The notes below the pieces were generated by a model, which was not told the DNA's origin, made no database searches, and saw only the letters and a list, made by a program, of their open reading frames with translations. Positions 167-62,999 of a stretch of 64,000 nt of DNA are shown in pieces; position 1 is the first letter of the stretch, and each line of letters begins with the position of its first letter. The position numbers and the translations under genes are program-made. Origin of the DNA: Pseudomonadota bacterium (lineage in GTDB: Bacteria > Pseudomonadota > Gammaproteobacteria > UBA5335); contig JAXHTV010000006.1 of the NCBI GenBank assembly GCA_034189865.1, forward strand, positions 1 to 64,000. Direction: 5' to 3'.

Positions 167-1420
167 GTGGAACAACAACTTGCGGAACTGAGCTACGCGC
201 TCGACACCTTCTATTTATTATTGTCCGGCGCATTGGTGATGTGGATGGCAGCAGGCTTCGCGATGCTGGAAGCCGGCTTGGTTCGATCAAAAAACACCGC
301 TGAGATTCTCACCAAAAATGTCGCTCTGTATGCCATCGCCTGCATCATGTATCTGGTGGTGGGCTACAACATCATGTATCCGGGTGGAGCCGTCAGTTCC
401 TGGTGGCCGGGCATTAGCTTCTTCGTTGTCGAAGACAACACAATCGAAGCGCTCATTGCGGGTGGCGAAAACACACCTACGTACTCTGACATGTCTAGTT
501 TCTTTTTTCAGGTGGTCTTCGTTGCAACGGCCATGTCCATTGTCTCGGGCGCCGTTGCGGAACGCATGAAGCTGTGGTCGTTCCTGGCTTTTGCCGTGGT
601 CATGACCGGCTTCATCTATCCCGTGCAAGGCTATTGGCATTGGGGCGAAGGCTTCCTGTTCAAAGCTGGTTTCGCAGACTTTGCCGGTTCCGGTGTCGTA
701 CACTTGGCCGGCGCCACCGCAGCCCTGGCCGGTGTTCTACTGCTCGGCCCCCGCCTGGGAAAATACGGCAAGTCCGGCGAGATCAATGCCATCCCCGGCG
801 CCAACCTGCCATTGGCGACCCTGGGCACGTTTATTCTCTGGTTCGGTTGGTTCGGATTCAATGGTGGTTCAAAGCTAAGCCTAAGTAATTTCGAAAATAG
901 TAACGCGGTCGCCAACATCTTCGTCAACACCAATGCCGCCGCCGCGGGCGGTGCTGTCGCGGCCTTGATTATGTCCAAAATTCTTTTTGGCAAGGCGGAT
1001 CTGACCATGGCGCTGAACGGTGCTTTAGCCGGCTTGGTCGCCATCACCGCCGAACCTCTGACGCCAACGGCCGGATGGGCAACCGTGATCGGTGCCATCG
1101 GCGGCATTATCGTCGTCAACGCCATTGTCGCCTTGGACAAGGCCAAAATCGATGACCCGGTGGGTGCCATCTCGGTCCACGGGGTGGTGGGTATTTGGGG
1201 GCTGCTGGCAGTCCCGCTGACCAATAACGATGCCACCTACGGTGCTCAATTGTTGGGTACCGCCGTGATCTTCGCTTGGGTCTTCGCGGCCAGCTTCGTT
1301 GTCTGGTCCGTCATCAAGGTGCTGGTCGGCATCCGCGTGTCGGAAGAAGAGGAATACAAGGGCGTGGACTATACCGAGTGCGGTCTGGAAGCCTATCCCG
1401 AATTCGGCCCGCAAAAATAG
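167..1420 (+). CDS. amt: Ammonium transporter (Amt family), copy 1
   Basis: A 417-residue inner-membrane ammonium channel. Translation starts at GTG after a clear GGAGG (156-160). The Amt signature DFAGSGVVHLAG puts the conserved Asp at 171 and the first pore His at 179; the second His is H338 in ISVHGVVGIWG. The hydrophobic pattern fits about 11 transmembrane helices. Unlike copy 2 it has no cleavable signal peptide, and its cytosolic tail (EEEEYKGVDYTECGLEAYPEF) resembles Amt proteins of the cyanobacterial type, as far as I can recall. The upstream P-II gene is the probable gating partner. A strong terminator follows, so this pair is probably a transcription unit of its own. Confidence 0.95.
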   Translation: MEQQLAELSYALDTFYLLLSGALVMWMAAGFAMLEAGLVRSKNTAEILTKNVALYAIACIMYLVVGYNIMYPGGAVSSWWPGISFFVVEDNTIEALIAGGENTPTYSDMSSFFFQVVFVATAMSIVSGAVAERMKLWSFLAFAVVMTGFIYPVQGYWHWGEGFLFKAGFADFAGSGVVHLAGATAALAGVLLLGPRLGKYGKSGEINAIPGANLPLATLGTFILWFGWFGFNGGSKLSLSNFENSNAVANIFVNTNAAAAGGAVAALIMSKILFGKADLTMALNGALAGLVAITAEPLTPTAGWATVIGAIGGIIVVNAIVALDKAKIDDPVGAISVHGVVGIWGLLAVPLTNNDATYGAQLLGTAVIFAWVFAASFVVWSVIKVLVGIRVSEEEEYKGVDYTECGLEAYPEFGPQK

Positions 1421-1445
1421 TACAACCCCTACCAGCAACCCCAAG

Positions 1446-1475
1446 GCGGGCACCTTTCGGTGCCCGCTTTTTTTT
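1446..1475 (+). terminator. Rho-independent terminator after amt copy 1
   Basis: A perfect 9-bp stem (1446-1454 with 1459-1467), TTTC loop and a run of eight T (1468-1475). It separates the first P-II/Amt pair from the second. Confidence 0.95.
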
Positions 1476-1500
1476 ACATGGCCCCACTTCCGACCCATAA

Positions 1501-1899
<399 letters not shown>

Positions 1900-1949
1900 A
1901 ACGCGAAGACACCACCGAAGAAGAATACGAATGTAAGGAGACAAATGGG

Positions 1950-3257
1950 ATGAATGGTTTTCCGCGTTGGATGAGGCATGGAAGCCCGGCCATCATCGGC
2001 TTGATCGCGGCGCCGTTGGCCTGGGGCGCTGAGAGCACAGAACTCAATGCCGGAGACACCGCATGGATGCTGGTCGCCACGGCCTTGGTTTTGTTCATGA
2101 CCATCCCGGGTTTGTCGTTGTTCTATGCCGGTATGGTTCGAACCAAAAATGCGCTGTCCGTGCTGATGCAATGTTTCGCCATTACGTGCTTGGTCACCAT
2201 ATTGTGGGTGCTGTGCCTATACAGCCTGGCGTTTGCCGATGGCGGCGCCTACAACAGCGTGATCGGCGGCCTGGACTACCTGTTCATGCGCGGCATAACG
2301 GCTGATTCCCTTTACGGAACCATCCCAGAGACGGTTTTTTCCACCTTTCAACTGACCTTCGCGATCATCACCCCGGCACTGATCGTGGGCGCTTTTGCCG
2401 AGCGCATGAAATTCTCCGCTCTGCTGCTTTTCGTCACGCTCTGGGTGATTGTCGTCTATGCGCCGGTAGCTCATTGGGTTTGGGGCGGTGGCTGGTTAGG
2501 CGAACTGGGGGTACTGGATTTCGCCGGTGGTACCGTGGTGCACATTAACGCCGGTGTGGCCGGGCTGGTGGCGGCCTTGGTAATCGGCAAACGACAAGGC
2601 TATCCCTCAACCCGCATGCCACCTCACAGCCTGGTCCTGACCTTGACCGGGACCGGCATGCTTTGGGTGGGCTGGTTCGGGTTCAATGCCGGCAGCCAAC
2701 TGGCGGCCGACGGCGGAGCGGGCATGGCCATGCTGGTCACTCAAGTGGCCACTGCGGCCGCCGCGTTGGTCTGGATGTTTGGTGAATGGCAGGCGCACGG
2801 TAAGCCCAGCGCGCTGGGAATCGCATCGGGCGCCATCGCCGGCCTGGTAGCCATCACGCCTGCCGCCGGTTTCGTCGGCCCCATGGGTGCATTGGCGATC
2901 GGTGCGCTGTCCGGATTCGGTTGCTTCCTCGTCACCACGCGGCTCAAGCCCGTTTTGGGCTACGACGATTCGCTGGACGCGTTTGGCGTTCACGGTATCG
3001 GCGGTATAATCGGTGCAATTCTCACCGGTGTCTTTGTCGCCGAGAATCTCGGAGGCGAGGGCCTGGAGGATGTGACCATGTCCGCACAAGTGATCAAGCA
3101 AGCCATCGGCGTGGTTGTCACCGTGGCCTACGGCGCGGTGCTAACGCTGATCATCTTAAAGCTGGTGGACGCCCTCATAGGGCTCAGGGTACCCGAAGAG
3201 GCCGAGGTCGAGGGCCTGGACTTGGCGCTGCACGACGAACGAGGTTACAACCTCTAA
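1950..3257 (+). CDS. amtB: Ammonium transporter AmtB, copy 2
   Basis: A 435-residue AmtB-type channel. It begins with a signal-peptide-like segment (about residues 1-26, ending PLAWGA), as in enterobacterial AmtB. The signature DFAGGTVVHINAG gives Asp190 and pore His198; the second pore His is H348 in FGVHGIGG. The start is supported by AAGGAGAC just upstream. It forms a pair with the P-II gene at 1561. It is clearly different in sequence from copy 1, so this is not a recent duplication. Confidence 0.96.
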   Translation: MNGFPRWMRHGSPAIIGLIAAPLAWGAESTELNAGDTAWMLVATALVLFMTIPGLSLFYAGMVRTKNALSVLMQCFAITCLVTILWVLCLYSLAFADGGAYNSVIGGLDYLFMRGITADSLYGTIPETVFSTFQLTFAIITPALIVGAFAERMKFSALLLFVTLWVIVVYAPVAHWVWGGGWLGELGVLDFAGGTVVHINAGVAGLVAALVIGKRQGYPSTRMPPHSLVLTLTGTGMLWVGWFGFNAGSQLAADGGAGMAMLVTQVATAAAALVWMFGEWQAHGKPSALGIASGAIAGLVAITPAAGFVGPMGALAIGALSGFGCFLVTTRLKPVLGYDDSLDAFGVHGIGGIIGAILTGVFVAENLGGEGLEDVTMSAQVIKQAIGVVVTVAYGAVLTLIILKLVDALIGLRVPEEAEVEGLDLALHDERGYNL

Positions 3258-3268
3258 GTGTCCGTATC

Positions 3269-3300
3269 GTCGGGGTTTCGGTTGCATCCGAAACCCCGAC
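3269..3300. terminator. Strong hairpin downstream of amtB copy 2
   Basis: A perfect 13-bp inverted repeat (3269-3281 with 3288-3300) with a 6-base loop starts 11 bases after the amtB stop. It has no T-run on the plus strand, so it may be a transcript-end stabiliser or an imperfect terminator rather than a classical Rho-independent one. Confidence 0.5.
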
Positions 3301-3427
3301 GGCGAACCCGAAATCCGTTGTGATAACACACGGAAAACGCCGGACGCATATCACGCCTGGATACCAGAGAGCATCGTGCAGCAACTCGCCAGCTCAATCT
3401 CACCTTAAATTGCGGATCCGCTAAGAC

Positions 3428-4021
3428 GTGTTAGAAGTTCGGCATCTGAGCACCGACCAAATATCTTCCGTGGACTTCCATATCGAATTCGGCACGTGCG
3501 TGACCCTGTTTGGCCCGTCGGGCGCGGGGAAAACGCGGCTGCTCCGCGCCATCGCCGATTTAGATCCCCACGGTGGCGAAGTGCGACTGGATGGGGTCCC
3601 GGCCCAGCAGTTCTCGGCCACGGCTTGGCGCCGCCAAGTGCAGTTGATGCCCTCCGAGCCCAAGTGGTGGTACCCCCATGTCGGAGATCATTTTCCCGAG
3701 TTCGACCAGGCGGCAGCTGCGGCGCTGGGTTTCGATCCCGCGGTGGCCACATGGCCCATCGAGCGCTTATCAAGTGGCGAACGCCAGCGCCTGGGTTTGC
3801 TTCGATCACTTGCCGTTGGACCGCGTGTCTTATTGCTTGATGAACCCACAGCCAATCTGGACGGCAAAAATGTTCAGGCGGTGGAAGCGTTGCTCGGAAA
3901 TTATCGGCGTGATCACGCCTCGGCGCTGTTGTGGGTCAGCCATGATCCGGCCCAACGACGTCGTGTGAGCGATCGTCAACTCTGCCTTGATAACGGGCAG
4001 TTGGCGGAGGTGGCTCCGTGA
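3428..4021 (+). CDS. fetA: ABC transporter ATP-binding protein, FetA/YbbL-like
   Basis: A short (197 residues) ABC ATPase with Walker A GPSGAGKT (29-36), signature LSSGER (114-119), Walker B VLLLDEP with the catalytic Glu, and switch His172. It starts at GTG; a good Shine-Dalgarno is not evident. It overlaps the next gene by 4 bases (GTGA), and that gene encodes a FetB-type permease, so the two form one transporter. FetAB of E. coli is linked to iron export and oxidative stress tolerance; that substrate is inferred from family only. The ATPase is a little shorter than E. coli FetA. Confidence 0.82.
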   Translation: MLEVRHLSTDQISSVDFHIEFGTCVTLFGPSGAGKTRLLRAIADLDPHGGEVRLDGVPAQQFSATAWRRQVQLMPSEPKWWYPHVGDHFPEFDQAAAAALGFDPAVATWPIERLSSGERQRLGLLRSLAVGPRVLLLDEPTANLDGKNVQAVEALLGNYRRDHASALLWVSHDPAQRRRVSDRQLCLDNGQLAEVAP

Positions 4022-54004: not shown

Positions 54005-55465
54005 TCAGGGTCGCAGCGGTTGGGCCAATGCGTCAGGTATAACATTACCTAACTCGCCCGCGAGTTGGCCATTGATCAGTAGATTGGCGTTCTTCAACTC
54101 GATTTCTGATTTCAGCCGACCGCCCTCTCGCAGCCAAACGCCCCGGCTCACGAGCTCATCAAAACGAGCCTGACCCCATCTGGCAGCGGCCGCATCCAAC
54201 TCGGGCCCACTGGGCATGCCTTCTTCCAGTAGATCCCAGCGGCTACGCTCGATCAGCACATCTAACAGCACCTGTTCGGGCAAACTCAGGCCTGCAGCAG
54301 CATGGGTCCGGCCGATCAACGCTCTGATATCGAATAACGGAACATTACCCCCGCCGGCGAACGCCACTTCGCCATGGCCGCGCACCTCACCATCGGGAGT
54401 CATCAACACCATCTCCTTGATTTCAAACCGCGGGGAAGCGGCCAACAAGCCAACGAGATCGTCGAAACCGCCAACCACAAGCGCGGCGTTAAGTCCTCCG
54501 CTACGAGCTTGCAGCAAGCGGCGACGCAGTCCCGCCAACGCAATAGGATCAAGGTTTTCCAACCGCAGTTCGAGATTGCCAGGCCCCAGGCGCTCCTGCG
54601 CCCACTCCAACCCCGTCAGACGCAGTTTTTGACCGAGATTGATCAGCTCGCCGTTTTGATCCACATCGTAGATGCTCTCAACCGATTCGGCCCGCCAATT
54701 CGTTGCAGTGTCACCGCCCGACTGCCCCGAGATGGCGTCCATTCGAACCGTGTATCGCCCGAGATAAATCCCCGAAGGTCCAGGCCGCATTTCGCCGTCA
54801 CCACCCAATCCGTCGACTTGAATCCGTTGCCCGTCCGGCAAACTGATCGTCAGCCGCGGCCAAGCGACCGATGTCTTGAGTATTTGGCTGTGCGGAGTCA
54901 GTGTGAATGCCAATTTGGCGGGTTCCCAGGCCACCGCACCTCCCGGCTGCCCATGAATCGGGCCCTGGTAAGCGGGAACGTCAAAGTGTCCATTAAGTCG
55001 GCCGGTGAACGTCATTTCACCCTGAGTCGTCAGGACCGCGCCGTCCGGAAAATAACCGGCCAGTTGCTGTTGTAAGTCCGGCGGCAAAGAAATGGCCGTT
55101 TGAATTCTACCGGCGCCGAAACCGAGTGCGGATGCGCCCACCGCGCGCCACATCGGCCCATGATCGATCTGATGCTTCATCGTCAACGGGACCGATGCGC
55201 GTTGGTCAATGCCCAACCGATCCAACCATTGCCCCAAACCCCGCGAACGACGCGGCCGGACCCACTCCAACACCACGACCGCTTGCGACTTCCGATAGCC
55301 ACGCTCATAGGATTGCGAGACCACGTGAATCTGAGGGTCCTGGTCCAAGGTGATGATGAGGTCTTGGAAGTGGCGCTCGGCAATAACCCCCACTCCGTAC
55401 GGGGTGGCCAAGGCCAGAGTGACCATCAGAAGAAAAACAAGCCCCAATAAGGTCCATCTTGTCAT
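54005..55465 (-). CDS. DUF945 (YdgA-like) family protein
   Basis: A 486-residue protein with an N-terminal hydrophobic segment (about 5-22) that may be a signal or an anchor, followed by the DUF945 fold (TPYGVGVIAERHFQDLI; QSYERGYRKSQAVVVLEW). YdgA-like proteins face the periplasm and have no clear function. The gene stands alone between the SDR gene and urtE. Confidence 0.85.
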   Translation of the reverse strand: MTRWTLLGLVFLLMVTLALATPYGVGVIAERHFQDLIITLDQDPQIHVVSQSYERGYRKSQAVVVLEWVRPRRSRGLGQWLDRLGIDQRASVPLTMKHQIDHGPMWRAVGASALGFGAGRIQTAISLPPDLQQQLAGYFPDGAVLTTQGEMTFTGRLNGHFDVPAYQGPIHGQPGGAVAWEPAKLAFTLTPHSQILKTSVAWPRLTISLPDGQRIQVDGLGGDGEMRPGPSGIYLGRYTVRMDAISGQSGGDTATNWRAESVESIYDVDQNGELINLGQKLRLTGLEWAQERLGPGNLELRLENLDPIALAGLRRRLLQARSGGLNAALVVGGFDDLVGLLAASPRFEIKEMVLMTPDGEVRGHGEVAFAGGGNVPLFDIRALIGRTHAAAGLSLPEQVLLDVLIERSRWDLLEEGMPSGPELDAAAARWGQARFDELVSRGVWLREGGRLKSEIELKNANLLINGQLAGELGNVIPDALAQPLRP

Positions 55466-55566: not shown

Positions 55567-56268
55567 TTACACGGTGAGGTATTGTTTGACCAGATCGTTG
55601 TTCAGTTCGGTCATGGCGCCGCCCGCTACCAACCGCCCCCGTTCCAAAATCTGGAAATGACTCGATGCGTGGCGTGCGAACTCCAGCTTTTGCTCCACCA
55701 ACAAGACCGTTAAACCCAATTCACGGTTGAGTTTGACGATCACGTCGGCAATCTCTTGCACAATATTGGGCTGAATACCCTCGGTGGGTTCGTCCAGAAT
55801 GAGCAGCCGTGGCTCCAGCGCCAGTGCCCGACCGATGGCCAACTGTTGTTGCTGGCCGCCGGAGAGGTCCCCGCCGCGGCGGTGAAGCATCGTCTTTAGA
55901 ACCGGGAACAACTCGAAAATCAAATCGGGCAACTGTTTGGGCTTTTTGGGATTGGCCAAAAGACCCACCCGAAGATTTTCCTCGACCGACATCAGCGGAA
56001 ACACATCCCGGCCTTGGGGAACGTAACCAATACCGACTGCGGCTCTTTTTTCCGCGGCGAAAGGCAAAAGATCCACGCCATCGAACAAAACGCGACCTGT
56101 ACGCGCCGGCAGCAAACCCATCACACATTTAAGGAAAGTGGTCTTACCGACCCCGTTGCGCCCCATCAAACAGGTGCAGCTGCCTTCTGGAATCTCGGCA
56201 TTCAAATCCCAAAGGATGTGACTTTGACCGTAGTATTGATTCATGCTTTCGATGGTTAACATGTTCAC
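55567..56268 (-). CDS. urtE: Urea ABC transporter ATP-binding subunit UrtE
   Basis: A 233-residue LivF-type ATPase with Walker A GRNGVGKTT, signature LSGGQQQQ and Walker B LLILDEPTEGIQP. It starts with GTG 56268 overlapping the urtD stop (GTGA); ATG 56262 is an alternative. It is the last gene of the urtABCDE set. Confidence 0.95.
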   Translation of the reverse strand: MNMLTIESMNQYYGQSHILWDLNAEIPEGSCTCLMGRNGVGKTTFLKCVMGLLPARTGRVLFDGVDLLPFAAEKRAAVGIGYVPQGRDVFPLMSVEENLRVGLLANPKKPKQLPDLIFELFPVLKTMLHRRGGDLSGGQQQQLAIGRALALEPRLLILDEPTEGIQPNIVQEIADVIVKLNRELGLTVLLVEQKLEFARHASSHFQILERGRLVAGGAMTELNNDLVKQYLTV

Positions 56269-57101
56269 GACCCCAAGTACACTTCCACCACCTGGGGATT
56301 GTTCTGTACCTGCTCCATCGTGCCTTCCGCCAGAACGTGACCTTGGTGGAGAACGGTCACTTGTCGTGCGATGGACCGTACAAATGCCATATCGTGCTCC
56401 ACCACCACCACCGAATGGCGTCCTTCGAGGGACAACAGCAGTTCGGCTGTGCGCTCCATTTCCTGATGGGTCATTCCTGCGACGGGCTCATCGATGAGCA
56501 ACAACTGGGGTCGCTGCATCAACAACATACCGATTTCGAGCCATTGTTTTTGGCCATGGGAAAGAGCGCCCGCCAAATAATTGGCCTGATCCGCCAGACC
56601 GATTACACGAAGCTTTTCGTCAATCAAATCCCGTTGCTCGCCCGTCAAGCGGGATACCAGAGTCGGCCAGACAGCTTTGTTGGCGTGCATGGCCAACTCC
56701 AGATTCTCGAACACGCTCAGCGTTTCGAACACAGTGGGCTTTTGAAACTTTCGGCCGATACCCATACTGGCAATCTCCGGCTCGGTGAGCCGGAGCAGAT
56801 TGATCCGCTGGCCGAAAAAAACCGTGCCTTGGTCCGGACGCGTTTTGCCGGTAATGACGTCCATCATCGTCGTCTTACCCGCACCGTTTGGCCCGATAAT
56901 GCAACGCAACTCACCCCGTTGAACGTAGAGATTGAGATCGTCGATGGCCTTGAAACCATCGAAGGAGACGCTGACACCTTCCATGTAGAGGATGGGGCCA
57001 TGCCGGGTATCCAAATCCGGGACATCGACGGGCGAGTCGGCGACGAAATCGAACACCCGATCCCGACGCATGGTTTCTCGAAACCGGTCCAGAGACTTCA
57101 T
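56265..57101 (-). CDS. urtD: Urea ABC transporter ATP-binding subunit UrtD
   Basis: A 278-residue LivG-type ATPase with Walker A GPNGAGKTTMMDVITG, the signature region ALSHGQKQWLEIG and Walker B LLLIDEPVAGMT. ALSHGQ is the UrtD form of the ABC signature. ATG 57101 overlaps the urtC stop (ATGA), so the frame open to 57302 is not used. Confidence 0.96.
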   Translation of the reverse strand: MKSLDRFRETMRRDRVFDFVADSPVDVPDLDTRHGPILYMEGVSVSFDGFKAIDDLNLYVQRGELRCIIGPNGAGKTTMMDVITGKTRPDQGTVFFGQRINLLRLTEPEIASMGIGRKFQKPTVFETLSVFENLELAMHANKAVWPTLVSRLTGEQRDLIDEKLRVIGLADQANYLAGALSHGQKQWLEIGMLLMQRPQLLLIDEPVAGMTHQEMERTAELLLSLEGRHSVVVVEHDMAFVRSIARQVTVLHQGHVLAEGTMEQVQNNPQVVEVYLGS

Positions 57102-58195
57102 GCGCGCTGCTCCGCCCGTCTTCGTTGGAGCAAACCGACAATCCCGCGCGGCAACGCGATCGTGACGAGGACAAACAACGCGCCTAAAGCGAACAACCAC
57201 ACTTCGGGCAACGCCGCCGTGAAATAGGTTTTGGCGTAATTGACCAAGAAGGCGCCCACGATCGCGCCATACAGCGTCCCTCGACCGCCGACGGCAACCC
57301 AAACGACCAGTTCGATTGAGTTCAGCGGTGAGAACTCGCTGGGGTTAATGATTCCCACTTGCGGGACATACAACGCACCGGCAACACCAGCCATACAGGC
57401 TGAGAACACGAACACCCATAGCTTGAAATTTTCAACTTTATAGCCCAGGAAACGTGCTCGATCTTCCGCATCACGCAGAGCAACCACCACCCGCCCGAGC
57501 TTGGAATTAACCACGTACAACGAGGCCAGATAGCCTGCAATCAATGCCACAGCTGAAGCAAAAAACAGCGCGGCCCGAGTGTGATCGGATTGTAGGTTGA
57601 AACCGAGAATGTCCTTGAAATCCGTTAAGCCGTTATTGCCACCGAATCCCATTTCATTGCGGAAGAACGCCAGCATCAACGCATAGGTCAGGGCTTGGGT
57701 GATGATCGAGAGATACACGCCGGTGACCCGCGAACGAAACGCGAACCACCCGAACAAAAACGCCAGGATTCCGGGAACCAAAACCACCATCACCATGGCG
57801 AACCAAAATTGATCGAATCCGTACCAGTACCATGGCAGTTCGGACCAATTCAGAAAAACCATAAAATCCGGCAGGATCGGATGACCATAAACCCCCCGAT
57901 CGCCGATCTGACGCATCAGGTACGTACCCATCGCGTATCCACCCAGCGCAAAGAACGCGCCATGGCCCAGGCTTAAAATGCCGCAGTAGCCCCAAACGAG
58001 ATCAAGAGCCAAAGCCAACAAGGCAAAACTGAGATACTTACCGAACAGCGTCAGAGTGTAAGTGGAGATGTGCAACGGCGAATCGGCGGGCACCCACAGG
58101 TTACAGACCGGAAACGCCACCGCCATGAGGGCGATCGCCCCGAGCAACAACCAGCCGATCAAATCATGGGCTCTGAGATACCTCATCAGCATCAT
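57098..58195 (-). CDS. urtC: Urea ABC transporter permease UrtC
   Basis: A 365-residue LivM-type permease with about nine transmembrane helices. The conserved GYCGILSLGHGAFFALGGYAMG region, and a long loop with HPILPDFMVFLNWSELPWYW typical of UrtC, are present. The start shares one base with the urtB stop (TGATG). Confidence 0.96.
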   Translation of the reverse strand: MMLMRYLRAHDLIGWLLLGAIALMAVAFPVCNLWVPADSPLHISTYTLTLFGKYLSFALLALALDLVWGYCGILSLGHGAFFALGGYAMGTYLMRQIGDRGVYGHPILPDFMVFLNWSELPWYWYGFDQFWFAMVMVVLVPGILAFLFGWFAFRSRVTGVYLSIITQALTYALMLAFFRNEMGFGGNNGLTDFKDILGFNLQSDHTRAALFFASAVALIAGYLASLYVVNSKLGRVVVALRDAEDRARFLGYKVENFKLWVFVFSACMAGVAGALYVPQVGIINPSEFSPLNSIELVVWVAVGGRGTLYGAIVGAFLVNYAKTYFTAALPEVWLFALGALFVLVTIALPRGIVGLLQRRRAEQRA

Positions 58196-59868
58196 CAGCC
58201 CTCCGCCGCCCGGCCTTTCTGCGGAAACAAACCGCGGGGTCGGCGCTGAATGAACAATATGATGAACACCAGGACCAGCGTCTTGGCCAACACCGCCCCG
58301 GAATAGGGCTCCAGGAACTTGTTCGCCACTCCCAACGTGAGCCCGCCAACGAGCGTACCCCAGATATTCCCAACGCCGCCGAATACCACAACCATAAAAG
58401 AATCGATGATGTACGCCTGCCCCAGATTGGGTCCTACATTGGTCAGCTGGCTGAGCGCCACACCGGCAACGCCGGCAATGCCCGAGCCCAGACCAAAGGT
58501 CAACGCATCAATCCAGTTGGCGCGAATACCCATGGCGCGGGCCATGGCACGATTTTGAGACACGGCCCGCACTTTAATACCCAGCGTGGTTCGGTTGAGC
58601 ACGAGCCACAACAAGGCAAAGACAAGCAAACTGAATAGCAAGATGTAAAGGCGGTTGTACGTCAACGACAACGCACTGTTGATTTCCAGCGAACCACTCA
58701 TCCAACTCGGCGTTGCCACCGACCGATTCAAGGGCGAGAAAATGGATCGCACCGTTTGCTGCAACAACAAACTCACACCAAAGGTCGCCAACAGCGTTTC
58801 CAACGGCCGCCCATAGAGGAACCGAATAACGCCTCGCTCGATCAAGATACCCACCAGACCCGATACTAAGAACGCCGTCGGAATAGCCAGCAACACCGAC
58901 CACCCAATCTGGTCGGGAAGTAGCTGCTGGATGACATAGGTGGTGTACGCGCCCAGCATGATGAGCTCACCGTGGGCCATGTTGATAACGCCCATGACCC
59001 CAAAGGTAATCGCCAAACCGATGGCCGCGAGAACCAAAACCGAGCCCAAACTCAAGCCGAAAAACACCGTTTCGATGAGCTCGTAAAAGGCTACTCGCGA
59101 TTCGATGTCGCGCAACGCTTTTGCGGCTGACGCCCGTACCTCGGTGTCAGACTCCCCGAAATGCCCGTCAGAATCGGTCTCGGTCATCGCACGCAGGCGG
59201 TTGGCCACGACCGGCAACAAGCTTCCGGCGACAATGTCGATCGCGGCCAAGCGGACCGCACGGTCGCCATGGCTCAGGTCGTTCAGCGCCAAGGCCACGG
59301 CCAATTGACGTTTAACCCCCTGATCGGACTCCACAGCAAGTCGCTCAACAAAGAGCTGAATGATTTCCGGCTCCGCCTGACCCGTCAGTTCCTTAACCGC
59401 CGCCGAACGAACATCCGGCTCCGGATCGGAAAGGCTTAAGGTAGCGATCTGCATCTTCAGCAAACCGCGAATTGTGTTGTTGATCGAAATACGCTTGACC
59501 GCTCGCTTGCCTACGACACCGAGTGCTTCGCCCGATAAGACGTCGGCGACGGAATACCCGTCCGAAACGGGAGTGACAAGCACCACGGCATCGAAAGGCT
59601 TGGCATAGTAAAGGTCGCCGTCTAAAAGCTGCTTAAAAAGTGGCAGGACGCGACGATCCGGAGACTGCGCCAAGCTTTCGATGACTCGGGCTTTGGCCGC
59701 GAAGCTCCGCGTGTTGAGTTCGGCCAACTGCTCGGCCAGGGAAACATCACGTTCGCTCGCTGCGACACTGGGCGGACCCGACATGCCGAGCATGACCAGC
59801 AGCACTGCCAGGAAACAACGAACGGACCGACCTACGTGAATCAGCGATCCCATGGCTCGATCCCCCAT
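58195..59868 (-). CDS. urtB: Urea ABC transporter permease UrtB
   Basis: A 557-residue protein. A signal peptide (about 1-37) is followed by a periplasmic HEAT-like helical domain (about 40-240, with LSDPEPDVRSAAVKEL and ALNDLSHGDRAVRLAAID) and a LivH-type permease domain from about 260 (MGVINMAHGELIMLGAYTTY). This long form is normal for UrtB. The start is ATG 59868 or ATG 59853. Confidence 0.95.
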   Translation of the reverse strand: MGDRAMGSLIHVGRSVRCFLAVLLVMLGMSGPPSVAASERDVSLAEQLAELNTRSFAAKARVIESLAQSPDRRVLPLFKQLLDGDLYYAKPFDAVVLVTPVSDGYSVADVLSGEALGVVGKRAVKRISINNTIRGLLKMQIATLSLSDPEPDVRSAAVKELTGQAEPEIIQLFVERLAVESDQGVKRQLAVALALNDLSHGDRAVRLAAIDIVAGSLLPVVANRLRAMTETDSDGHFGESDTEVRASAAKALRDIESRVAFYELIETVFFGLSLGSVLVLAAIGLAITFGVMGVINMAHGELIMLGAYTTYVIQQLLPDQIGWSVLLAIPTAFLVSGLVGILIERGVIRFLYGRPLETLLATFGVSLLLQQTVRSIFSPLNRSVATPSWMSGSLEINSALSLTYNRLYILLFSLLVFALLWLVLNRTTLGIKVRAVSQNRAMARAMGIRANWIDALTFGLGSGIAGVAGVALSQLTNVGPNLGQAYIIDSFMVVVFGGVGNIWGTLVGGLTLGVANKFLEPYSGAVLAKTLVLVFIILFIQRRPRGLFPQKGRAAEG

Positions 59869-59937
59869 CGACCTGTCAAGCGCGGTTTCCCGTGAAACCG
59901 CAGGACCAATATCACTTGGAACATTACAGAAAGAAAA

Positions 59938-59963
59938 GGCTGGGCCGGAACACCGGCCCAGCC
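59938..59963 (-). terminator. Intercistronic hairpin between urtA and urtB, terminator-like
   Basis: A perfect 11-bp GC-rich stem (59938-59948 with 59953-59963), loop of 4, and read on the minus strand it is followed by TTTTCTTTCT. It lies 17 bases after the urtA stop, so it may reduce urtBCDE expression relative to the binding protein, or stabilise the urtA 3' end. Confidence 0.75.
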
Positions 59964-59979
59964 TGAATGCTATGGCGAT

Positions 59980-61284
59980 CTACTCGTAATTTTGCCCGGA
60001 GCACTGGCCGGTTTTGATGTTGAAATTCCCGCAGTTTACCGGCGGTGTCCAATCGGCAATGATGTCTTTGCTGCCGGGGAGAAAGTCGGACCAAGCGTCA
60101 CCAATCACGGTACCCGGCGTTTCCCAGACCACTTCGAACTGGCCATCGTCTTGAATTTCCCCAATCAATACCGGCTTGGCCAAGTGGTGATTGGGGTACA
60201 TCACCGAAACGCCGCCGGTCAAATTGGGATAAGTCATGCCGATCATCGCTTTGGCAACCGCATCGGTGTCGGTGGTACCGGCCTGTTCCACCGCCTTAAC
60301 CCACATGTTGAAACCGATGTAATGGGCCTCCATGGGGTCATTGGTCACGCGGTCGGAATCTTTGATGAACTTATGCCAAGCTTGAATGAATTCGTCGTTC
60401 TCTTCGCTGTCTACACTCATGAAGTAGTTCCAGGCAGCGAGGTGGCCCACCAAAGGCGCGGTGTCGATTCCGGAGAGTTCTTCCTCACCGACCGAGAATG
60501 CCACCACCGGAATCTCATCGGCCGAAACGCCTTGGTTACCCAACTCTTTATAGAAGGGTACGTTGGCATCACCGTTAATGGTGGAGACAACTGCGGTTTT
60601 CTTGCCCGCCGAACCGAACTTCTTGATCTCAGAGACAATGCTCTGCCAGTCTGAGTGTCCGAACGGTGTGTAATTGATCATTATATCGGCGTCCGCCACG
60701 CCTTTGGCCTTGAGATATGCCTCTAAAATCTTGTTGGTCGTCCGCGGATAAACGTAGTCCGTTCCGGCCAGCACCCAGCGCTCGACACCCAAATCATTCA
60801 TCAAATAGTCCACCGCGGGGACGGCCTGCTGATTGGGCGCCGCGCCGGTGTAAAAGACATTCTTCGAGGATTCTTCGCCCTCATACTGAACCGGATAGAA
60901 AAGCAAGCCGTTCAGTTCTTCGAAAACCGGCAGCACCGATTTGCGCGAAACGGAAGTCCAACAACCAAAAGTGACAGCCACTTTGTCTTTGGCGATCAGT
61001 TCCCGGGCTTTTTCAGCAAACAAAGGCCAGTTGGAGGCCGGATCCACCACCACCGGTTCGAGCTTCTTACCCAACACACCGCCTTTCCGATTCTGCTCTT
61101 CGATCAGCATCAGCATGGTGTCTTTGAGGGTTGTCTCACTGATCGCCATGGTTCCCGAAAGCGAATGCAAAATTCCCACTTTGATGGTCGATTCCGCATA
61201 AGCCGCCGGCAAGGCCAAGGTAAAACACAGCGCGATGCTTGCAACCAGACGCACTCGATCCTGCGATATCCGCCCGTTTCGCAT
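59980..61284 (-). CDS. urtA: Urea ABC transporter substrate-binding protein UrtA
   Basis: A 434-residue periplasmic binding protein: signal peptide (about 1-30, ending LPAAYA), then the UrtA sequence (VGILHSLSGTMAISETTLKD; FGCWTSVSRKSVLPVFEELNGLLFYPVQYEG; TDYVYPRTTNKILEAYLK). Strong AAAGGAGGT before the ATG implies high synthesis, as usual for binding proteins. Confidence 0.97.
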   Translation of the reverse strand: MRNGRISQDRVRLVASIALCFTLALPAAYAESTIKVGILHSLSGTMAISETTLKDTMLMLIEEQNRKGGVLGKKLEPVVVDPASNWPLFAEKARELIAKDKVAVTFGCWTSVSRKSVLPVFEELNGLLFYPVQYEGEESSKNVFYTGAAPNQQAVPAVDYLMNDLGVERWVLAGTDYVYPRTTNKILEAYLKAKGVADADIMINYTPFGHSDWQSIVSEIKKFGSAGKKTAVVSTINGDANVPFYKELGNQGVSADEIPVVAFSVGEEELSGIDTAPLVGHLAAWNYFMSVDSEENDEFIQAWHKFIKDSDRVTNDPMEAHYIGFNMWVKAVEQAGTTDTDAVAKAMIGMTYPNLTGGVSVMYPNHHLAKPVLIGEIQDDGQFEVVWETPGTVIGDAWSDFLPGSKDIIADWTPPVNCGNFNIKTGQCSGQNYE

Positions 61285-61319: not shown

Positions 61320-61344
61320 CCTGCCCGCCGTGTAGACGGGCAGG
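61320..61344 (-). terminator. Weak terminator-like hairpin between porin and urtA
   Basis: An 8-bp stem (61320-61327 with 61337-61344) and a 9-base loop; on the minus strand it is followed by CCTCTTTCT. Weak: it probably causes partial termination or marks the porin mRNA end. Confidence 0.4.
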
Positions 61345-61355
61345 TTAAACGAAGT

Positions 61356-62111
61356 TTAGATGATGCCGAACTTGTAGCTGACGCTCAGCACCATGGTATC
61401 GCCTTGTTCTTGTTCTGCACGGTCTTCACCACCAAAGATGTAGGTGACGGCCATGTCGGCGCCGGTGCTACCGATGGGATGCGACAAGGTCAGGTTGGCG
61501 TGACGGAAGCCGGAGTCTTGCAACGTAACACCACCGAGCTCGTCGTTATCGTCGTCGTCATAGGTGTAGTAGCCGATATCGACGGCCAAGCTGAAGTCGG
61601 CTGGCAACGCGAAGGCATAGCCGGCGGTCCAGTAGATATCGCCACTGTTACCCCAGAAGCCATCGTTGATCAGGTACTGAGCTTGCACGTAACCGTCAAG
61701 GAAGTTGAAAGCCAAGACGGCTTCGGTGAGATCCGAATCATCCACACCGATGTAATAGTACTGGATGACGCCAACGTCGAAGCCGTAATCACCGAAGCTG
61801 GGAGCGAAACCGACATAAAAGTCGTTCTCGAAACCGCTGCTGACGGGGTCATCAACCGGATCAGAGTAGTAGGTGTAATCCAGATTAGAAGCCCACCAAC
61901 CGGCATAGAAACCGCTGTCGTGAGCATAGTCCAGCCCGCCTTGAACAGCCGTGTTGCTGTTCTCAGCTGCCGCAGTGATCCCACGTAGAACGTACTTTGA
62001 GTAAACGCCGATGTTACCGGACAACTCTGCGTGAGCTGCGCTGGCACCGAAAGCCATAGCGGAAACTAAAGCAGCACCGGCGACCTTCTTTTGGATGTTA
62101 TTTCCTCTCAT
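61356..62111 (-). CDS. Putative outer-membrane porin, TorF/TIGR02001 type, urt-linked
   Basis: A 251-residue protein with signal peptide (about 1-28, SAAHA-E) and a beta-barrel pattern of repeated short aromatic strands (GNIGVYSKYVLRGIT, YAGWWASNLDYTYYSDP, YIFGG). The opening and the VLRGI motif resemble the TIGR02001/TorF family; this family call is from memory. It lies between ureG and urtA on the same strand and just downstream of a sigma-54 promoter, which makes it a candidate for urea or amide passage through the outer membrane. Confidence 0.75.
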   Translation of the reverse strand: MRGNNIQKKVAGAALVSAMAFGASAAHAELSGNIGVYSKYVLRGITAAAENSNTAVQGGLDYAHDSGFYAGWWASNLDYTYYSDPVDDPVSSGFENDFYVGFAPSFGDYGFDVGVIQYYYIGVDDSDLTEAVLAFNFLDGYVQAQYLINDGFWGNSGDIYWTAGYAFALPADFSLAVDIGYYTYDDDDNDELGGVTLQDSGFRHANLTLSHPIGSTGADMAVTYIFGGEDRAEQEQGDTMVLSVSYKFGII

Positions 62112-62198
62112 AACAAAGCATACTCCTAGCTGTATTGAAACACCCGTTTACCAGACAGCCCAACGTCCGTACGGGTTTTCGTTGGTCCCGACCTAATG

Positions 62199-62214
62199 AG
62201 CAATTCTTGTGCCA
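62199..62214 (-). promoter_or_regulatory. Sigma-54 (RpoN) promoter upstream of porin-urtABCDE
   Basis: On the minus strand the bases read TGGCAC-AAGAA-TTGCT, with GG and GC separated by exactly ten bases. It matches the -24/-12 consensus TGGCAC-N5-TTGCW fully. The predicted start of transcription would be near 62188, about 77 bases before the porin ATG. An NtrC-type activator is expected for sigma-54; no clear NtrC palindrome was found by eye. Confidence 0.8.
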
Positions 62215-62252
62215 TATGGCGAGAATCATTCATTTACCCCCGGGACATCGGT

Positions 62253-62275
62253 TTTTGGCCGACCATCGGCCAAAA
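62253..62275. terminator. Hairpin between ureG and the sigma-54 promoter
   Basis: A 9-bp stem (TTTTGGCCG at 62253-62261 with CGGCCAAAA at 62267-62275) and a 5-base loop. It is upstream of the sigma-54 promoter and may end the ureG transcript or be an operator. There is no strong T-run on the minus strand. Confidence 0.4.
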
Positions 62276-62327
62276 TCTTTGATATCAAACCTCCCCCAAA
62301 CCATCCAGGATGGTGCGCCATTGGGCG

Positions 62328-62999
62328 CTACGCGCCTTTTTGGTGCAAATCGATCGGCTCAGGCGATGTCGAACGCCCGCTTCTACGGAGCATGCCGGCA
62401 TCGACGATAAAATCCATGATGTGGCTCAAACCCTCCTGGGACTTGAGATTACTGAACACAAAAGGACGATCTTCCCGCATTTTTTTCGCATCGCGCCGCA
62501 TGACATCCAACGAGGCGCCGACGTGCGGTGCCAGATCGATTTTGTTGATCACCAGAAGATCGGAACGCGTGATTCCCGGCCCCCCCTTGCGGGGAATCTT
62601 GTCTCCGGCCGAAACGTCGATGACATAGATCGTCAGGTCCGAAAGTTCGGGACTGAAGGTGGCCGCCAGATTGTCGCCGCCACTTTCAATAAAAACGACA
62701 TCCAAATCGGGAAATCGGGATGACAGCTCCGCCACGGCGGAGAGATTCATCGATGCATCCTCCCGAATGGCGGTATGCGGACAACCGCCGGTTTCCACAC
62801 CCATGATGCGGTCCGACGTGAGCGCCTGACTGCGGGTAAGAAAATCCGCATCTTCACGGGTATAGATATCATTCGTCACGACGGCGATCTGGAAGTGTTC
62901 TCTCATTTGTTTGCACAAAGCGTCGACCAAAGCCGTTTTGCCGGAGCCCACAGGGCCGCCGATTCCCACTCTCAATGCGCCATGCTTGGTCTGTTCCAT
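62328..62999 (-). CDS. ureG: Urease accessory GTPase UreG
   Basis: A 223-residue SIMIBI GTPase with P-loop GPVGSGKT (15-22), the nickel-binding CPH motif (73-75 in [12 protein letters not shown]) and the GTP-specificity motif VINKIDLA. It helps insert nickel into urease together with UreE, UreF and UreH/D. The C-terminus has an unusual tail ([17 protein letters not shown]) beyond the common family end. Confidence 0.97.

Follow-up and report, generated by a model that had tools for sequence, protein, structure and literature searches.

The TorF/Gcw_chp family porin gene and the urea-transporter genes urtABCDE, which follow one another on the minus strand of the 64-kb window (the whole stretch of DNA that was analysed; table 1), are preceded by a sigma-54 promoter element and, further upstream, by an NtrC-like dyad. 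We consider it very probable that the sigma-54 promoter serving this locus is activated by NtrC and belongs to the Ntr (nitrogen starvation) regulon. The same pairing of sites, with the two elements set at helically phased distances, was found in front of many other TorF genes of the Gammaproteobacteria, repeatedly next to ammonium or urea transporter genes.

The porin–urt locus and its promoter region

The preliminary description of this DNA had placed the promoter 5′ of a porin gene and the five urt genes, an assignment that curated HMMs bear out for every gene concerned. All five UrtABCDE subunits score above their curated family cut-offs, and the porin, whose N terminus resembles a signal peptide, reaches 120 bits with TIGR02001 (cut-off 47) and 81 bits in a second profile search (cut-off 24); it is also the sole TorF match in this genome. 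The longest urtD ORF extends to 57302, with a likely start near 57101. On the same strand, 3′ of urtE, lies a DUF945 gene (54005–55465) with no known role in urea use.

Table 1. Features of the porin–urt locus and its upstream region (positions in the window)
Feature	Position	Strand	Basis or remark
ureG, last urease-cluster gene, directly upstream	62328..62999	-	HMM
NtrC-like dyad TGCACCAAAAAGGCGCG, 9/10 core bases	62331..62347	-	within last ureG codons
Weak second NtrC-like dyad CGCACCATCCTGGATGG, 7/10	62301..62317	-	starts 102 bp upstream of -24 element
Second IHF-like candidate site, 1 mismatch	62272..62284	-	tentative
Perfect 10-bp inverted repeat, 3-nt loop, TTTTGGCCGA-TGG-TCGGCCAAAA	62253..62275	.	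between NtrC site and promoter
IHF-like candidate site, 1 mismatch to WATCAAN4TTR	62224..62236	+	about 22 bp upstream of -24 element; tentative
Sigma-54 -24/-12 promoter element TGGCAC-N5-TTGCT	62199..62214	-	pattern and matrix score
TorF/Gcw_chp family putative porin	61356..62111	-	TIGR02001, PF09694
Terminator-like hairpin between porin and urtA	61320..61344	-	10-bp, strong, partly T-rich tail
urtA, urea ABC transporter substrate-binding protein	59980..61284	-	TIGR03407
Terminator-like hairpin between urtA and urtB	59937..59964	-	
urtB, permease	58195..59868	-	TIGR03409
urtC, permease	57098..58195	-	TIGR03408
urtD, ATPase	56265..57101	-	TIGR03411
urtE, ATPase	55567..56268	-	TIGR03410

The promoter element itself, TGGCACAAGAATTGCT, reads TGGCAC-AAGAA-TTGCT on the minus strand from 62214 to 62199, with the exact GG-N10-GC spacing that had been claimed for it, and its predicted +1 falls at about 62188. 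With an approximate sigma-54 scoring matrix, it obtains 16.9 bits and ranks first among the roughly 128,000 positions of both strands of the 64-kb window, the runner-up obtaining 13.7. Upstream, the preliminary description had proposed a search for an NtrC motif between 62215 and 62330; the good dyad was found just beyond that interval, within ureG, and it is also outside the range originally described (61356–62275). The distance from the start of this good dyad down to the -24 element is 132 bp. On its own such a site is no more than suggestive, since about 0.008 dyads of this grade are expected per 131 bp of the window. Its spacing is in helical phase with the set of TorF promoters described below. 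The perfect 23-bp palindrome at 62253–62275 was considered as a repeated operator and discarded, no second perfect copy being present in the genome; likewise, a sigma-54 site 5′ of ureD (CTGGCGTGTTATTTGCT, near 68104) proved mediocre, with a good dyad absent at normal distance.

Comparison with close relatives had also been put forward as a check on the promoter, and its outcome was favorable: the order ureG–porin–urtA is found in three genomes of the same family, each with an NtrC dyad of 9/10 or better. The sigma-54 element scores 13.3 bits with a 9/10 dyad in L118, 15.1 bits with a 10/10 dyad in L120, and a weak 10.6 bits with a 9/10 dyad in L119, so that close relatives with the same gene order retain both elements rather than lack them. 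The same order and promoter pair also occur in other families (e.g., L049, L115, L122, and L236). For four members of the family, the upstream sequences had diverged too far for a DNA alignment to be of use, and it was set aside. One genome of this family, G002 (L250, L257), has two copies of urtA, with 80% and 70% identity to that of the window, and its porin-linked urtA is the more diverged copy.

Transcription of the porin and urt genes

The preliminary description had presented a single sigma-54-driven porin–urtABCDE unit. The promoter does stand upstream of these genes; that they form one unit is less secure, as a strong terminator-like hairpin separates the porin gene from urtA, and urt expression would therefore need read-through. 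The likeliest reading of the sequence is that one promoter would give high porin expression and lower urt expression. One could suppose instead that the promoter is real and mainly yields a monocistronic porin transcript, with the hairpin at 61344–61320 stopping most transcripts and urtABCDE being expressed from an unrecognised promoter. This is a rather unlikely arrangement, albeit one with some substance, considering the strength of the hairpin here and the presence of a stem-loop 3′ of the porin in 11 of the 12 porin–urt loci examined, several with long T runs. However, the porin–urtA interval of the window shows no further promoter-like site, and no sigma-54-type site was found 5′ of urtA in L049, L115, or L057. 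Some porin-less genomes, moreover, have the sigma-54/NtrC pair directly 5′ of urtA (8 of 80 loci), which likewise speaks against this arrangement. Finally, stem-loops near genes for substrate-binding proteins commonly grade expression rather than act as full stops.

The probable activator and the TorF promoters of the Gammaproteobacteria

Both proteins needed for the proposed control are encoded in the genome: RpoN (TIGR02395, 510 bits, over cut-off) and NtrC (TIGR01818, 752 bits against a cut-off of 559), the latter at C6:73885–75372, on the same contig as the porin–urt locus and about 12 kb away. Together with the phased 9/10 dyad and the conservation in relatives, their presence supports the NtrC control that had been called probable, and we likewise regard a sigma-54 promoter under NtrC control as probable from sequence. 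The genome encodes about ten strong enhancer-binding proteins (EBPs), NifA among them, and a different EBP, such as NifA, could in principle activate this promoter instead of NtrC. We hold this to be very unlikely, as no NifA-type TGT-N10-ACA site was found in a search near the porin promoter, when an NtrC-like dyad is present there at a phased distance typical of the family. The NifA gene, which is over its family cut-off, lies on contig C5 (L155, L156), where an IscA-like gene is found near sigma-54-like sites; the NifA and IscA-like genes suggest a nitrogen-fixing organism.

The wider genome was surveyed through pattern searches and selected stretches. Over its 2.9 Mb, TGGCACN5TTGCW is matched exactly at 11 places, compared with 1 for a reversed-pattern control. 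Several fall within ORFs and are probably due to chance. Others stand 5′ of pilA, itself 0.6 kb from an EBP gene, of a gene in a flagellar region, of a nirB-like gene, and of an operon for an ABC transporter. That the element of the porin–urt locus should itself be a chance match, an ordinary promoter serving these genes, is extremely improbable even with such ORF-internal matches in view, given that it is the best of the window, rightly placed, conserved with the gene order, and paired with an NtrC dyad, and that no sigma-70-like promoter was found on the minus strand between 59800 and 62500. A genome-wide count of NtrC dyads with one mismatch was too noisy to define a regulon by itself (195 places against 110 for the reversed control). 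Strong sigma-54 sites were observed ahead of an ABC-transporter operon (contig C45, L159:2488) and of a NirB-like gene (contig C33, L158:14108), the latter with a 9/10 NtrC dyad 123 bp upstream.

TorF genes are present in 145 of the 276 sampled genomes of the class. A promoter pair was counted where a sigma-54 site scoring 13 or more had an NtrC dyad of 8/10 or better at a distance of 60–190 bp. In a first sample, this pair was found in front of 25 of 37 TorF genes; the corresponding figures were 13 of 2020 for control ORFs and 1 of 740 for shuffles. In a second, class-wide sample, it was found for 43 of 79 TorF porins against 12 of 596 control ORFs, and these 12 are explained by overlap with the porin itself or by a divergent urtA. 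Some loci occur in both samples. Among 66 distinct promoters (score of at least 12.5), an upstream dyad reaches at least 8/10 in 58 and at least 9/10 in 44. The dyad distances group at about 90, 101, 111, 121, 132, and 143 bp, that is, with a period of 10.6 bp (R = 0.63), and none of 5000 uniform or jittered simulations was equally strong; the loci were spread across families to lower relatedness, kinship lying outside the simulation model. In 22 of the 66 promoters an IHF-like motif falls at the same, fixed offset, compared with 0 promoters at the median offset; the IHF-like sites of the window have offsets that differ from this commonest family position. TorF copies lacking the pair are numerous outside the Gammaproteobacteria and also occur within the class, and since few TorF genes from Alphaproteobacteria and other genomes of the phylum show it, the rule is not phylum-wide.

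Proposed porin function, known systems, and genomic partners

On this reading of the locus, nitrogen limitation would lead phosphorylated NtrC to occupy the dyad at 62331–62347, which lies about 132 bp upstream, probably on the face of the helix that is common to the family; DNA bending, tentatively by IHF, may assist its contact with the promoter, and NtrC would then open the RNA polymerase–sigma-54 complex at 62214–62199. The porin would be transcribed first, and probably most, followed by urtABCDE, probably through read-through of the terminator-like hairpin. The porin may thereby raise the permeability of the outer membrane to small nitrogen solutes, here urea, which Urt would import and the adjoining urease would split. 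The AlphaFold model of the porin, of moderate confidence (12 strands, mean pLDDT 72, pTM 0.69, from an alignment of six sequences), has PDB matches that include the small monomeric porins OmpG, NanC, and VhGalP at TM of about 0.5–0.6. The model thus fits an outer-membrane barrel and is silent on the substrate; a search for solved structures by porin sequence gave insignificant matches only.

Several known systems resemble parts of this locus. In Herbaspirillum seropedicae, nlmA–glnK–amtB is NtrC-dependent and induced 21-fold under nitrogen limitation, NlmA being a membrane-associated and probably periplasmic protein (PMC3023670). In both layouts a membrane-protein gene precedes nitrogen-transporter genes, under NtrC control there and probably so here, whereas in the present case a porin heads urtABCDE rather than glnK–amtB. 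In the glnK promoter of this same genome (contig C23), a perfect and a 9/10 NtrC dyad stand 111 and 124 bp upstream of the sigma-54 element, a phased spacing similar to that of the porin–urt locus, but no porin gene lies between that promoter and glnK. By comparative genomics, Leyn et al. (2016; PMC5343134) predicted NtrC control of ureABC and urtABCDE in several proteobacterial orders, so that NtrC regulation of urt is expected, as predicted here too; unlike the regulons described in the main text of that study, which does not mention a porin, the present locus has a TorF porin behind the promoter. As for the porin, Shewanella TorF shares its family-model name (TorF family putative porin) and is annotated as a “TMAO reductase system outer membrane porin,” an annotation that refers to TMAO respiration, with a role in nitrogen starvation unstated there (PMC5955497).

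What appears to be new is that, in the Gammaproteobacteria, a porin family, TorF, repeatedly carries a phased NtrC/sigma-54 switch beside ammonium or urea transporters. No description of a link between TorF, phased NtrC sites, and nitrogen transporters, nor any mention of TIGR02001, Gcw_chp, or PF09694, was found in the literature searched, whose coverage was incomplete, and Pfam assigns no function to the family. We would give about an even chance to the broader proposal that gammaproteobacterial TorF/Gcw_chp proteins are largely an outer-membrane arm of the nitrogen-starvation response, that is, channels for small nitrogen solutes that are paired with AmtB and expressed from a helically phased NtrC–IHF–sigma-54 promoter, a single lineage having come to be paired with the urea transporter and being possibly specialised for urea. 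In the textbook Ntr regulon, uptake is an inner-membrane matter, without a conserved outer-membrane partner for ammonium or urea. If the link with TorF holds, a family of unassigned function would gain a testable role, and one may ask why, under starvation, nitrogen solutes that are small and neutral or cationic would need a dedicated outer-membrane channel. In these phased spacings there is also a ready natural data set for studying the way in which an activator bound at its enhancer reaches the sigma-54 promoter.

In the phylogeny, glnK and amtB are the commonest downstream partners of TorF, an approximate labelling assigning them to 39 of the 85 tree rows; 14 of the 85 rows are urt-linked. 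Because most relatives adjoin glnK–amtB, it is equally possible that the porin of the window is a general nitrogen-starvation porin rather than a urea carrier. Thirteen of the 14 urt-linked rows, together with five others, form a supported subclade of 18 (99/92), with the fourteenth, L057, just outside it. As this subclade nests among amt-linked porins, the TorF–urt pairing looks like a derived variant. One of these five others, a porin of the urt clade (L233, about 1195–3598), has strong sigma-54 and NtrC sites and, in place of urt, directly precedes a gene with a NifA-type GAF likeness, as judged from the start of that gene. At two further loci (L229 and L239), the TorF porin is divergent from urtA, each side having its own sigma-54/NtrC-like pair, and a small cytochrome-c-like gene lies 3′ of the porin.
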